From a virus, in IMG/VR virus record IMGVR_UViG_3300017706_000327, positions 1 to 25,173 of that record: a stretch of DNA of 25,173 nt. The stretch is one strand, 5' to 3'. Under the pieces are notes generated by a model. That model was not told where the DNA came from and ran no database searches. It saw only the letters and a program-made list of their open reading frames with translations. Positions 4,622 to 18,512 of this stretch are shown piece by piece. A program made the position numbers and the translations under genes. Numbering within the stretch: position 1 is the stretch's first letter; each line of letters starts with the position of its first letter.

Positions 4622-4861
4622 ATGAAGTTAAACATCGAGCAACTTGTCGAAGATTTGGGGGGCTGCAAAGAGATATCCAACAAACTGAGCATTGAGAAAT
4701 CCATCCCTTACGGATGGCTGAGACGGGACTTCCTAAGCTCAGATTATTTAAGCCTCATCAAGAAGGCGTACCCGACAATAAAAATCGACAACTACTTTAA
4801 TAAAAAAGAGGAAATAAAAAAACATGGACAAAAGGGATATGCTGTTAAACGCAGCACTTGA
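4622..4861 (+). CDS. Cro/YdaS-like helix-turn-helix protein
   Basis: From the ATG at 4622 this is a 79-residue basic protein. Residues ~5-45 (QLVEDLGGCKEISNKLSI, then SIPYGWLRRDFLSSDYLSLI) read as a Cro/YdaS-type helix-turn-helix: helix, a short turn with the expected small residues, then a recognition helix and a closing helix. The C-terminus is Lys-rich. The longer TTG start at 4616 adds only two residues and is not needed. The gene lies beside the divergent control region and overlaps the primase gene by 38 bases in another frame. This is the position of an early phage regulator, so it may bind the repeated block at 4560-4591 and 18404-18435. That binding is inference. Confidence 0.65.
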   Translation: MKLNIEQLVEDLGGCKEISNKLSIEKSIPYGWLRRDFLSSDYLSLIKKAYPTIKIDNYFNKKEEIKKHGQKGYAVKRST

Positions 4862-6776
4862 GTACCTTGATCGAGGCTGGCTACCAATACCTATCAAGCA
4901 AGGGGAGAAAGCACCGTCAGTAAAGTGGGGCCACTACGTCGATAACTCTGTGCTTCCGACTGAGGATGAAGTCATCAACTGGTGGACGCAGTGGCCCGAC
5001 GCCAGGATAGCACTGGTAACATCACGCCTAACCAACCTCGTAGTCGTGGACTGTGATAGCCCCGAAGCAATGAAGCAAGCCGCTGATTTGGGCATCACCC
5101 ACACGCCTGTCGCAGTCAAGACCAAGCGGGGCCACCACTTCTATTTCGAGCATGGAGATTTCGATTGGCACAAAAATGCAGTGGGCAGTAGCGCCAACGG
5201 TATAGATTGGCCGAAGGTTGACGGCCTCGATTTCCGTGGGAGCAAGGGCTACGTCATCGCTCCGCCTTCTAACAATTACGAATGGAAGATCGGGGCGGGG
5301 GCAGACGTAGACGACATGCCCGAATGGTTGCCTCAAAAGTTCACCCAATCAAATGTCGTAAGCATTGACCCAAACAAACCCTTCGTGTTCGAAGGTACTG
5401 ACCTCTCTATGTTCAAAGTTAAAACTATCTGGGAAGAAACGCAGGAAAAGGTTGACGCTCTGGGCCATAAGCTACCGGATGGCGGCGAGAACGGCAGGGA
5501 TCATCGCCTGTGGCTGTGTATATCGGAAGCAGCCGCCCAGAAAGAGGGTGCCAAAGGTCTGAGGGGTGACGAACTATTCGACAACGCCTGTCTGTTTATG
5601 CAGACGTTTTTCCAGAACGACATTGACCACCAAAAAGTTTGGCAGATGTGCGAGCGCGTGAGCGCAACGGATGATCGTAACCACCCAGACGTTGAGCCCA
5701 CAACTCAGAAGGACGATGTGCCGACTAAGAAGATTATCAAGCCTATCACAACAGGTGACATCGACAGACTTTCGGCAGAGGATGGGCAGAAAGAGTTCTT
5801 CATCGAGCCTTGGCTGGTCAAGTCAGGAACTATCGTACAAGTCCACGGTTTTTCTGGGCACGGCAAGTCCATGATAACGCGCCACGCTTTGTACGCAGCC
5901 GCCGCAGGGCAGCGCAAGTTTGGGCCGTGGGATATTAACGCTCGTCCAAGAGTTCTTTATCTCGACCACGAAAACTCTCGTAGCAACGTGATCTCCTTTC
6001 TGTCGCAAGCCAAGAAAATGTACGGCGATGCGGGAGAGAACTTTATGTTGTGGTGTCCGTTCGATGACACCGAAGACATGAACCTAAAGACGAAGGCTGG
6101 CGTCGATAAGATGCAGACTTGGATCAACGCATGCAAGCCAGATGTAGTCGTGATAGACACGATACGTTCGGCCTATCTTGGACTGTCTGAGAACAATTCG
6201 GAGGAGTGGTCGCTTATAAACTCTATGGCTATGCAGCTTCGAAACAATCGTATCAGCGTAGTGATGCTGCACCACAGCAACAAGCCACAAGAAGGTTCTG
6301 TATCTGGGCGTGAAGCTGGATCATCTAACCAGTTATCCGCACTCGAAACCCAGATTAAGATTACGCAAGTGTTTGCTGACGAAGAGACAGCGCAAGTCCG
6401 TGCTGCAATCCACAGCCCTGACATATGGGAAAATCTAGGCCGAGGTCTTGGGACAGGCGAGAGATTGCAAATGGTAATTGAAGCTCGCTACGGCAAGACG
6501 AGAGAGTGGACTGATGTGCATGAGCCTGTGCATCAGATTGGGTTTGCATCGAATGATGCAGAGGACATGCGAGTAGTGGCCCAGAAGTCTACGAAGCAAC
6601 GGGTTACTAGCTGGGCTGATGAGTGGGAAGACGCGCACGGAAACATGCGCCCTGCGCTGACAGATGCTGAGATCCAAGATAGAATTGGTGGGGTGAAACC
6701 TCTTAGCGTAATCAGAAAGTGGACGATGCCAATACGTTCGCTCAAGCACGTTCAAGGATTACTAGCTGCTAAGTAA
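4824..6776 (+). CDS. Bifunctional primase-polymerase / RepA-like helicase
   Basis: This 650-residue protein has two domains. Residues ~1-175 are an archaeo-eukaryotic-type primase-polymerase (PrimPol). They show NLVVVDCD with D76 and D78 as metal ligands, KTKRGHHFYF with the catalytic histidine region at 104-105, and LDFRGSKGYVIAPPS at 135-149. Residues ~315-560 are a RecA-fold helicase like RepA of RSF1010 (AAA_25). They show Walker A GFSGHGKS (342-349), Walker B VVVID (441-445) and an HHSNKP sensor-like motif (483-488). A middle helical segment joins the two. The protein should prime and unwind DNA at the replication fork. No replicative DNA polymerase is seen in this window. The ATG at 4824 lies inside the end of the Cro-like gene. 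Confidence 0.93.
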   Translation: MDKRDMLLNAALEYLDRGWLPIPIKQGEKAPSVKWGHYVDNSVLPTEDEVINWWTQWPDARIALVTSRLTNLVVVDCDSPEAMKQAADLGITHTPVAVKTKRGHHFYFEHGDFDWHKNAVGSSANGIDWPKVDGLDFRGSKGYVIAPPSNNYEWKIGAGADVDDMPEWLPQKFTQSNVVSIDPNKPFVFEGTDLSMFKVKTIWEETQEKVDALGHKLPDGGENGRDHRLWLCISEAAAQKEGAKGLRGDELFDNACLFMQTFFQNDIDHQKVWQMCERVSATDDRNHPDVEPTTQKDDVPTKKIIKPITTGDIDRLSAEDGQKEFFIEPWLVKSGTIVQVHGFSGHGKSMITRHALYAAAAGQRKFGPWDINARPRVLYLDHENSRSNVISFLSQAKKMYGDAGENFMLWCPFDDTEDMNLKTKAGVDKMQTWINACKPDVVVIDTIRSAYLGLSENNSEEWSLINSMAMQLRNNRISVVMLHHSNKPQEGSVSGREAGSSNQLSALETQIKITQVFADEETAQVRAAIHSPDIWENLGRGLGTGERLQMVIEARYGKTREWTDVHEPVHQIGFASNDAEDMRVVAQKSTKQRVTSWADEWEDAHGNMRPALTDAEIQDRIGGVKPLSVIRKWTMPIRSLKHVQGLLAAK

Positions 6777-6782
6777 AAAGAA

Positions 6783-6824
6783 GCCGACTACGAATAGGGA
6801 GGAAACAAAACTTTCGTAGTCGGC
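6783..6824 (+). other. Perfect 12-bp stem-loop after the primase-helicase gene
   Basis: GCCGACTACGAA (6783-6794) pairs exactly with TTCGTAGTCGGC (6813-6824) around an 18-base loop. The hairpin begins six bases after the primase-helicase stop. There is no T-run after it, so it is not a standard intrinsic terminator. The loop contains AGGGAGGAAA, repeated at 6851-6860 outside the hairpin. A weaker stem, CCACA (6831-6835) with TGTGG (6845-6849), lies just downstream. Possible roles are an RNase III or processing site, an mRNA end stabiliser, or part of a small RNA. Confidence 0.6.
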
Positions 6825-6874
6825 CAGTAACCACACATGAGGAATGTGGCAGGGAGGAAAACAACAACACAGCG

Positions 6875-6973
6875 AAATCGCGGCTTATCTCTAATCGTTA
6901 AACGATCATCGAACGCAAAACCCATAAGGGTTTTTCGTTTAAGCTCTGAATTCGCTTAATCGCACCGCGATTT
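6875..6973 (+). ncRNA. Candidate structured non-coding RNA or DNA element (multi-helix junction)
   Basis: AAATCGCGG (6875-6883) and CCGCGATTT (6965-6973) are exact inverted repeats that could close a junction of about 99 bases. Inside it are three further stems. ATCGT/ACGAT sits at 6894-6906. AACGCAAAACCC (6912-6923) pairs with GGGTTTTTCGTT (6928-6939), 11 of 12 positions, around an ATAA loop. TAAGC/GCTTA sits at 6940-6958. Together they predict a four-way-junction-like fold. It does not resemble a tRNA. The long AAAACCC stem could act as a weak terminator, but there is no separate T-run. Strand is assumed from the flanking genes. A replication origin is the main alternative. No member of a known RNA family is recognised. 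Confidence 0.35.
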
Positions 6974-7018
6974 TAGGCCTGTCTGTCGGAAAAGTAAACC
7001 CCTAAGACTATTAATAGT

Positions 7019-7047
7019 TTGCTTATTTAATATGTAAGTTGTATATA
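7019..7047 (+). promoter_or_regulatory. Sigma70-like promoter for the HTH/zinc-ribbon gene
   Basis: TTGCTT (7019-7024) and TATATA (7042-7047) are separated by exactly 17 bases. The spacer ends in TAAGTTG, the heptamer found in tandem at 4556-4571. The palindrome CTATTAATAG lies just upstream. The predicted start of transcription, near 7053, leaves a short leader with AGGGGG before the ATG at 7081. The 13-mer AGTTTGCTTATTT, which includes the -35 box, recurs at 10574-10586 upstream of the LuxR-type gene. Confidence 0.55.
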
Positions 7048-7080
7048 GTCGCCCATCAGACACAACATCTAGGGGGTCAC

Positions 7081-7422
7081 ATGGGCAAGAAGCTAAGTTT
7101 GTCAGCAGATGACATAAACTGGCTTACTGATAACCATGAAAAGCTTTCTCTACGCGCATTAGCCAGCAAGTATAATTGCTGCGTAGACACAATCAAGCGC
7201 ATACTTATGAGATACGATTTGCAGTATTTCGAGGGCGCAAAATACCAGTTTAAAATACCAGAAAAAACTTGGAGCCGTGCATGCATAAGCTGCGGCTGCG
7301 AGAAGTCTCGACCAAAATTTCAGTACAAGTGCAGTCGATGTACATCGCGTGACAATCAGTGCCGCGTAAGCAACGACGATCCGAAACCAATCTCACTAGC
7401 AACTTTAGAAGGTATCGTATGA
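7081..7422 (+). CDS. HTH and zinc-ribbon DNA-binding protein
   Basis: This is a 113-residue protein starting at the ATG at 7081, preceded by AGGGGG. An upstream in-frame TTG at 7039 would lie within the promoter and is rejected. Residues ~20-47 (KLSLRALASKYNCCVDTIKR) form a helix-turn-helix like those of recombination-directionality factors and small phage regulators. Residues ~68-86 hold two CxxC-type pairs (ACISCGCE then CSRC), a zinc-ribbon pattern. Both parts point to DNA or RNA binding, probably early in infection. The stop overlaps the start of the resolvase gene (ATGA), so the two are made together. The target is unknown. Confidence 0.75.
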   Translation: MGKKLSLSADDINWLTDNHEKLSLRALASKYNCCVDTIKRILMRYDLQYFEGAKYQFKIPEKTWSRACISCGCEKSRPKFQYKCSRCTSRDNQCRVSNDDPKPISLATLEGIV

Positions 7423-13923: not shown

Positions 13924-14111
13924 CACGCGTTCTCCTCTGTGGTTTCTATGACTTCAAAAGTGCCATCGTAAAACGACCAGTCGGGGTCGTCGCATAAGTC
14001 GACTGATTGGCCTTGCTCAAATGCCCAATCGTGCGCTTCGTCTTCGTTCGCAAACTTCCTCTTGGTTTTGTATATTTTCGTATTGGATAAGATTATTTCG
14101 TAGCTTTTCAT
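13923..14111 (-). CDS. Small acidic protein, DpnD/PcfM-like layout
   Basis: This 62-residue protein has a strand (KSYEIILSNTKIYKTKRKF), a helix with the ANEDEAHDWAFEQG pattern, an acidic turn (LCDDPDW) and a closing strand (GTFEVIETTE). This strand-helix-strand order with an E-D-E-A helix resembles the small DpnD/PcfM-like phage proteins, whose role is unknown. The ATG overlaps the stop of the SleB-type gene (ATGA), so it is translationally coupled. The similarity is from layout only and may not reflect true homology. Confidence 0.65.
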   Translation of the reverse strand: MKSYEIILSNTKIYKTKRKFANEDEAHDWAFEQGQSVDLCDDPDWSFYDGTFEVIETTEENA

Positions 14112-14515
14112 GTCTTGCTCCTATAAAAAATGTGCCGACCAATCTTCGCAACCTTGCGATAGCTTGCCGCCCAGTACGGGCGAACATAGTCAGCGTGATA
14201 GTGGGTGCTGCCTTGCGTGGAGCGCAGCGTTACTCCGTCCATGAGCGCGTACCGCGCAACATGTATTGCTTGATCCCAAGCGAGAATGTCCTTGGGCTCG
14301 TCACTTTTGCCATCGCAATACCAACTGAACTGACAGCCGTTCTTGCTCGTCTGCTTCACCACTCCGCATATCGTGTTCGGGTAGCTCGTAGACTTCACTC
14401 TGTTTAACGTGACCTCTGCCACGGCGAGCTGTCCTCTCACGCCTTCCGAACGCGCTTCGTGATACAAGTTCAAGGCGAGGCAAGTCATCGGGATAGATAG
14501 AGATAGGCTTAACAT
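14108..14515 (-). CDS. SleB/CwlJ-type cell wall hydrolase (Hydrolase_2)
   Basis: This 135-residue protein carries the family signature almost from its start: LALNLYHEARSEGVRGQLAV with the likely catalytic glutamate E20, then AEVTLNRVKSTSYPNTICGV, QFSWYCDG and a following Trp/Ala helix (ILAWDQAIHVARYALM). SleB-like enzymes cleave peptidoglycan glycan strands. Family members are used in spore germination and also occur in many phages of Proteobacteria. No clear signal peptide is seen beyond a short hydrophobic start. It lies in the CobS/CobT-like operon rather than the lysis cassette, so it is a second wall-cutting enzyme. Its first ~215 bases overlap the upstream frame. Confidence 0.88.
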   Translation of the reverse strand: MLSLSLSIPMTCLALNLYHEARSEGVRGQLAVAEVTLNRVKSTSYPNTICGVVKQTSKNGCQFSWYCDGKSDEPKDILAWDQAIHVARYALMDGVTLRSTQGSTHYHADYVRPYWAASYRKVAKIGRHIFYRSKT

Positions 14516-14720
14516 GTACTCGTTCCTTCATGTTGGGAAAGGCGGCATCTATCTCCGCACAAATTTCCTGTATTTTTTCGTGATTGTTGTGCCGCACCCG
14601 TCGAACCTTCACGACGTATGCAACGTGCCACCAGAACGAGAGTGGTCTGCGCTCCCATAGGCGCAGCCACTCCTTCTTTGTTGTGGGCTGAATGTTGTAA
14701 TGAAACTTAGGCAGATGCAT
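14301..14720 (-). CDS. Hypothetical basic protein overlapping the SleB-type gene
   Basis: This 139-residue frame has an ATG 14 bases before the CobT-like stop, with GGAG seven bases upstream. The N-terminal ~70 residues are unique to this frame and look like protein: FHYNIQPTTKKEWLRLWERR, a Trp-rich stretch (SFWWHVAYVVKV) and a helix (EKIQEICAEIDAAFP). The remaining ~70 residues overlap the SleB-type gene in another frame and are highly charged, probably an unstructured tail. Without this gene, 190 bases of a dense operon would be empty. I do not recognise the family. Confidence 0.6.
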   Translation of the reverse strand: MHLPKFHYNIQPTTKKEWLRLWERRPLSFWWHVAYVVKVRRVRHNNHEKIQEICAEIDAAFPNMKERVHVKPISIYPDDLPRLELVSRSAFGRRERTARRGRGHVKQSEVYELPEHDMRSGEADEQERLSVQLVLRWQK

Positions 14721-18417: not shown

Positions 18418-18446
18418 TGAATACGCAACTAAAGATGCGTTGTCAA
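18418..18446 (-). promoter_or_regulatory. Promoter of the CobS/CobT-like operon with operator in the spacer
   Basis: On the minus strand TTGACA (18441-18446) and TATTCA (18418-18423) are exactly 17 bases apart. The spacer is filled by an imperfect 18-base palindrome at 18423-18440 (plus strand ACGCAACTAAAGATGCGT; 7 of 9 pairs). This is a typical place for a repressor to block RNA polymerase. The predicted transcript starts near 18411, and GAGG lies before the ATG at 18389. Confidence 0.65.
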
Positions 18447-18503
18447 ATAAAACACACAAAAAAACCGCCCTTAAGGCGGCTGACGTACATCTTTAGTTGC
18501 GTA
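18422..18503. repeat. 16-bp inverted repeat flanking a terminator
   Basis: TACGCAACTAAAGATG (18422-18437) is repeated exactly in inverted orientation as CATCTTTAGTTGCGTA (18488-18503). The left copy lies inside the CobS-like promoter. The right copy lies between the terminator and the end of the next leftward gene. Two operator copies that bind a repressor and loop the DNA would fit. A long-range hairpin that brackets the terminator is the alternative. Confidence 0.7.
18458..18480 (-). terminator. Intrinsic terminator of the peptidase/zinc-finger operon
   Basis: On the minus strand GCCGCC, a TTAA-type loop and GGCGG are followed directly by seven T residues. The stem is five to six GC-rich pairs. 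It ends the leftward transcript that contains the genes at 18513-22249 and insulates the CobS-like promoter immediately beyond it. Confidence 0.85.
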
Positions 18504-18512
18504 AGGGTTTGG

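Follow-up and report, generated by a model that had tools for sequence, protein, structure and literature searches.

A predicted minus-strand promoter whose -10 region forms one arm of a conserved inverted repeat beside the primase-helicase gene of CRP-810-type marine phages

The non-coding region that follows the primase-helicase gene in the window (the whole 25-kb virus record analyzed here, 25,173 nucleotides) contains an element that is a predicted promoter whose -10 arm is preserved while its letters change, and this holds across a family of marine phages. In the branch of the family to which the window belongs, the element is on balance best regarded as a minus-strand small-RNA gene, which would yield a structured RNA of ~190 nt. 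We likewise lean toward the view that the region as a whole is a minus-strand transcription unit set between divergent promoters and adjoining the primase-helicase gene, and not a 3'UTR of the primase. The coordinates of the features are given in Table 1.

Table 1. Predicted features of the element and its flanking genes in the window.
Feature	Position	Strand	Remark
Prim-Pol/AAA_25 primase-helicase	4824-6776	+	Always upstream of the element
Predicted small RNA, ~189 nt (about 190)	6775-6963	-	Putative start ~6963, terminator U-run ~6775
Terminator U-run TTCTTTTTA	6774-6782	-	TTTTTTT in three relatives
Intrinsic terminator hairpin	6783-6824	-	12-bp stem, GCCGACTACGAA (6783-6794) with TTCGTAGTCGGC (6813-6824); loop with UUUCCUCCCU copy 2; invariant GTTTCCTCCC in the window clade
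Weak variable hairpin	6831-6849	-	
UUUCCUCCCU, anti-Shine-Dalgarno-like motif, copy 1	6851-6860	-	Outside any loop; less well kept in the clade
Left arm (arm 2), AAATCGCGG	6875-6883		Inverted copy of the promoter -10 region
Small interior hairpin ATCGTT..AACGAT	6894-6906	-	Fold and window-clade alignment
Central hairpin	6912-6939	-	7-bp upper stem, 1x1 mismatch, lower stem, 4-nt loop; form conserved across lineages
Interior hairpin TTAAGC/GCTTAA	6939-6959	-	Almost invariant in the window clade
Right arm (arm 1), CCGCGATTT	6965-6973		In relatives spans promoter positions about -15 to -4
-10 box TAAAAT	6970-6975	-	Overlaps the right arm
-35 box TTTACT	6993-6998	-	Relatives mostly TTGAC[A/T]
Candidate divergent promoter of the HTH gene, TTGCTT-17-TATATA	7019-7047	+	Sequence inspection, consensus match only
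HTH plus Zn-ribbon protein	7081-7422	+	Always directly downstream of the element; weak Pfam HTH_28 match

The order of the replication genes, the Prim-Pol/AAA_25, YqaJ and AAA_24 genes and a cobS/cobT-like pair match the window to Roseobacter phage CRP-810, the type of a marine phage family that is widespread in the ocean and has marine alphaproteobacteria as hosts (PMC11288001). Pfam matches in the window were Prim-Pol with PF09250 and AAA_25, a YqaJ nuclease, an AAA_24 ATPase and an integrase. The cobS/cobT pair had no Pfam match and was assigned by order, as an AAA_5 gene followed by a long gene like cobS/cobT of CRP-810; with this assignment the window has the gene content of the CRP-810-type family. 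Four contigs were near relatives, with primases 94-96% identical, and in many distant relatives the primase was about 40-52% identical. Across about 90 related loci the element was conserved in structure and not in sequence, within the conserved gene order primase, element, HTH/Zn-ribbon gene, resolvase. The word "noncoding" was not found in a text search of the CRP-810 paper (PMC11288001). In the CRP-810 record itself (locus L052, 8407-8697; record about 14026-14316), neither the conserved HTH/Zn-ribbon gene nor a minus-strand ORF of 105 aa that lies between primase and element is annotated.

In every main lineage, a sigma70-like promoter TTGACN-16/17-TANNNN, recognized by sequence match, faces left, with the HTH/Zn-ribbon gene behind it. 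The extended -10 of this promoter (about -15 to -4) forms one arm of a 12-bp inverted repeat; the second arm lies 60-110 nt downstream of the first, with a mismatched hairpin between them. The original prediction had described a 9-bp closing pair that encloses three hairpins, and all of these were recovered in the window, while the minus-strand promoter, which shares bases with the right arm of that pair, had been overlooked. The window promoter, TTTACT-17-TAAAAT, is a modest match (9/12), and its 9-bp arm is among the shortest. Because this arm begins two bases into the -10, the window was not caught by the strict promoter-plus-repeat scan.

In 65 of 79 distinct regions the right arm contained the -10 of the best minus promoter, compared with 5 of 79 after shuffling, and several of the misses had the same layout with a weaker -10 score. 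The mean best repeat score of the 79 regions was 21.0 versus 13.9 in shuffled sequences, whose maximum was 18.8. When 706 kb of loci were scanned, the promoter-plus-repeat architecture was found in 78 of 93 elements and 9 times elsewhere, with 4 of these 9 being the same element seen from the other side. Moreover, the element was the only strong match to the pattern in the whole CRP-810 genome. One branch (L140, L141, L147, L156, and L158) fits the promoter-arm rule poorly; its members have ~1.2 kb between the primase and the HTH gene and carry a different AT-rich inverted repeat.

The pairing of the arms was followed through the relatives. Five core arm positions were Watson-Crick in all 27 distinct arm sequences (0 G.T in 135), where the 27, like the 51 below, are not independent events, as sequences within a lineage are related, though the arms differ widely between groups. 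Between promoter positions of about -15 and -4, at least 20 of the 27 were paired, and pairing dropped at once outside. Among 51 distinct sequences, the arms were 94% Watson-Crick versus 56% with the 3' letters redealt, and the central hairpin 85% versus 32% in shuffles, both controls ignoring kinship. G.T pairs were rare, with 14 of 612 in the arms and 8 in the central hairpin. In close relatives, CG, UA, and AU interchange and CG swaps with GC in the central hairpin, and AU is swapped for GC in the terminator stem, with pairing kept in both. In distant relatives no sequence similarity is left, but a mismatched hairpin flanked by the arms of a long inverted repeat still occupies the same place. 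A lack of covariation had been named beforehand among the results that would speak against a structured element; instead, the stems change sequence and keep their pairing. These comparisons show that the predicted structure is kept by compensatory change, with a fixed promoter/inverted-repeat geometry. Concerted double changes with hardly any intermediates are also what template switching during replication between inverted repeats would leave, in which case the arms would match only through homogenization and pairing would have no function. However, the boundaries fixed at about -15 to -4 across lineages and the independently conserved central hairpin argue for selection, and we consider homogenization alone a very improbable account.

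On either strand the region folded more stably than every one of 200 dinucleotide shuffles (z -4.5 for plus, -5.5 for minus), which bears out its description as strongly structured, and in 23 of 27 sequences the minus strand of the element had the more stable fold of the two. The minus strand is most likely the functional one, because it has the better fold in those 23 of 27, the terminator occurs only on it, the promoter points along it, and a minus-strand gene stands between the element and the primase in several relatives. An element of the plus-strand mRNA, acting as a processing site, as the 3'UTR or terminator of the primase, or as a 5' leader of the HTH gene, would suit the gene order of the window, and the plus strand also folds well. 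But no U-run follows any plus stem except a weak GGGTTTTTCG in the window, the minus strand is the more stable in most sequences, many relatives have a minus-strand gene lying between primase and element, and the conserved promoter points the opposite way; we therefore hold a plus-strand element to be quite unlikely. The original prediction had read the plus strand and placed the structure after the primase; the comparison favors the minus strand instead, with a unit predicted to be independent of the primase mRNA because in several relatives a gene on the opposite strand intervenes.

The 12-bp stem of the original prediction was found as described. What had been overlooked is that its minus strand runs directly into TTCTTTTTAC, and the stem is therefore a predicted terminator on that strand. 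A promoter (6998-6970) and an intrinsic terminator (6824-6775) on the minus strand are thus strongly suggested by the sequence, and the two sequence marks of an intrinsically terminated phage small-RNA gene, a promoter upstream and a Rho-independent terminator on the same strand, are both present. The predicted transcript has a fold z of -6.3. The terminator, with its 12-bp stem and U-run, occurs in the window and in L053-L055, and equivalents occur in most gene-less relatives. Because arm 1 is upstream of the putative start, a transcript of this promoter would lack it, and the closing stem, although real in the DNA, was rejected as a helix of own-promoter RNA, where it cannot form.

The repeat AGGGAGGAAA, reported earlier at 6796 and 6851, is present at both places and reads UUUCCUCCCU on the minus strand. 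After arm 2, CUCCC or CCUCCC is found in all gene-less groups inspected except L100-L105/L122, often in a hairpin loop; this one group has neither the CUCCC motif nor a clear U-run. A conserved CCUCCC-type motif in a hairpin loop is a mark of anti-Shine-Dalgarno loop sRNAs. In alphaproteobacteria and others, sRNAs use loops of this kind as anti-Shine-Dalgarno sites, and the alphaproteobacterial SmelA075/SmelA099 have CCUCCC-type hairpin loops (PMC3927594). The predicted RNA shares these loops, and CRP-810-type phages infect marine alphaproteobacteria; it differs in that the motif usually occurs once or twice, alongside a separate 5' domain that is long and structured, and in matching no Rfam model. 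By this analogy, target repression via the CCUCCC loop is a likely, putative action of the small RNA. Host RNA polymerase would make the RNA early, and the exposed UUUCCUCCCU loop or loops would reduce the translation of target mRNAs by pairing with their Shine-Dalgarno sequences. No perfect GGGAGG site was found at the mRNA starts of the window phage, and a duplex scan of 30 window gene starts gave no credible target for the motif, so the targets would be host mRNAs or lie outside the 25-kb piece. Near the end of the minus unit in L056, L090-L101, L092-L095, and L100-L105, a hairpin was observed with a shared loop form, GCTAGGTNNNNNACTACG, on differing stems; this loop is perhaps a binding site.

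A tRNA/tmRNA search of the region returned nothing, as the original prediction had expected. In Rfam, no family reached its gathering score in the region, and the best sub-threshold match was ctRNA_pT181 (24.9 bits vs 56). A distant DNA search of phage records with the region gave no match. An exact 15-base pattern had 45 matches, a 22-base pattern matched only four close relatives, and a genome scan with the primase alignment gave one distant match. The conserved 21-mer was absent from the bacterial genomes searched, so there is no sign of an attachment site or a host gene copy. An invertible DNA switch between the arms found no support, the interior being in one orientation in the relatives inspected, and for the retron, intron, CRISPR, and attC readings that were considered, no accompanying genes or motifs were seen.

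The OOP RNA of phage lambda, which ends in an intrinsic terminator, and the predicted RNA are both short leftward transcripts beside replication genes. OOP is antisense to cII, whereas the RNA of the window clade is longer, hardly antisense to any gene and carries the CCUCCC loop. We know of no inverted repeat of OOP's -10. The pO promoter drives this leftward transcript beside the lambda replication genes, and its activity matters for ori-lambda replication (PMC3985674). A non-coding RNA is also expressed at the replication locus of cluster A mycobacteriophages, in their RNA-based prophage origins (PMC7157519), at the same kind of locus as the RNA predicted here; no RepA-like gene accompanies the mycobacteriophage origin, whereas a Prim-Pol/helicase gene always adjoins the present element.

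Between the two divergent promoters (6999-7080, and the same region in relatives), the words AGGTGTTG and AACACCTAAAG recur, are common in relatives, and overlap or flank the -35 boxes of both promoters. They are likely a common operator for a phage regulator. Elsewhere in the window, in the stretch 18424-18505, the arms of a perfect 16-bp inverted repeat, TACGCAACTAAAGATG/CATCTTTAGTTGCGTA, flank a minus-strand terminator, a TTGACA-17-TATTCA promoter leads into the cobS-like gene, and a CAACTAAAG motif resembles the repeats between the divergent promoters at the HTH gene.

The gene-less loci on the window's side formed one branch of the primase tree (SH-aLRT 100; labels assigned by us, midpoint root). 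Most groups of this branch have a strong minus-strand intrinsic terminator 90-180 nt after arm 2. In the sister branch, which includes CRP-810, a small minus-strand ORF replaces the terminator part, and these ORFs are of several unrelated kinds. The promoter-repeat module thus appears independent of what is transcribed, and the repeat independent of the small RNA, because the sister branch keeps it before small protein genes. The common protein family after the module is NRxKYPE; L068, L117, and L125 have instead a RuvC-like protein, a small Zn-finger protein and a small putative membrane protein. The original prediction had offered three roles. A phage small RNA fits the window's own branch best, given the minus promoter, structured body, intrinsic terminator, and CUCCC motif, while an mRNA control element fits the sister branch, in which this promoter and leader stand ahead of a small ORF on the minus strand; the window's branch has no such ORF.

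In the fold-back inhibition of IS10 and IS50, one arm lies in the promoter region and the other near the start codon, and only external transcripts fold. The sister branch often resembles this, with one arm in the promoter region and arm 2 overlapping the ribosome-binding region of the downstream ORF; in contrast, the repeat here persists through the whole branch of the window, which has no downstream ORF. A read-through gate of this type would let RNAs started upstream carry arm 1, fold onto arm 2 beside the start codon and block the small ORF, while RNAs from the own promoter were translated. This agrees with the absence of arm 1 from own-promoter RNA, with arm 2 ending 2-40 nt before the start codon in many gene-bearing relatives, and with arm 2 being unpaired for 41% in own-promoter RNA versus 9% in read-through RNA. 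But the arms are equally kept in the window's branch, and the near-absence of G.U together with the lack of decay in any lineage is more than occasional read-through RNA demands. We regard the gate as unlikely.

Strict Watson-Crick pairing, exact promoter boundaries, and persistence without a downstream ORF favor a role at the level of DNA. An inverted repeat of the promoter's own -10 would act on DNA by forming a hairpin or cruciform that includes or excludes the promoter. Such folding would tie transcription to the state of the DNA, for example to replication starting beside the primase gene. The repeat and the mismatched hairpin might accordingly fold on single-stranded DNA or as a cruciform at a replication origin, where RNA polymerase would prime DNA synthesis at the folded, double-stranded extended -10, or Prim-Pol would do so at the hairpin, with the minus transcript as origin transcription, much as at lambda pO or at single-strand promoters. 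In favor of this reading, the element always has the Prim-Pol/helicase gene on one side and the HTH/resolvase genes on the other; the arm coincides with the extended -10 and stops short of the start site; the near-absence of G.T in arms and central hairpin is unusual for a helix selected only as RNA; the repeat is kept with or without a minus gene; and, folded as DNA, the window's element reaches z values of about -4.5 to -4.8 on either strand. However, the check that had been proposed for an origin turned out negative, with no GC-skew switch or extremum at the element in the window nor at 14439-14552 of the CRP-810 record. The conserved -35 means that the promoter would also work on duplex DNA, and no initiator-binding array has been demonstrated. 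An origin is possible, although we would not call it probable.

A parallel is offered by the Frpo/ssi single-stranded DNA promoters, which PMC11541004 (citing Masai and Arai, 1997) describes as having the promoter element in a DNA stem of inverted repeats, with both boxes and their complements folded. A promoter element in the stem of inverted repeats and a conserved structure are common to both systems. The difference is that only the extended -10 is in the fold here, with the -35 kept outside it as duplex sequence; pairing ends at about -15, so the two boxes do not share the stem, and this also counts against an origin of the Frpo kind.

For the promoter-arm repeat, an origin-linked single-strand or cruciform structure, read-through gating and RNA-promoter pairing are candidate roles. 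As a tentative proposal, which we think has a modest chance of being right, the element may represent a new class of phage control element, in which the extended -10 is an arm of a strictly kept inverted repeat and DNA folding and promoter opening exclude or enable each other, coupling transcription of the small RNA or leader to replication beside the primase. No described system in the literature searched matched the co-evolution of a -10 with its inverted copy. Such co-evolution, seen across 27 distinct sequences, is an unusual evolutionary signature, and co-change of the arms lineage by lineage, if true, would mean selection for pairing of the promoter DNA and not for promoter sequence. The element may thus be a handle on how CRP-810-type phages start replication or time early gene expression, and it adds a candidate regulatory RNA that, by analogy, has a likely ribosome-binding-site target.
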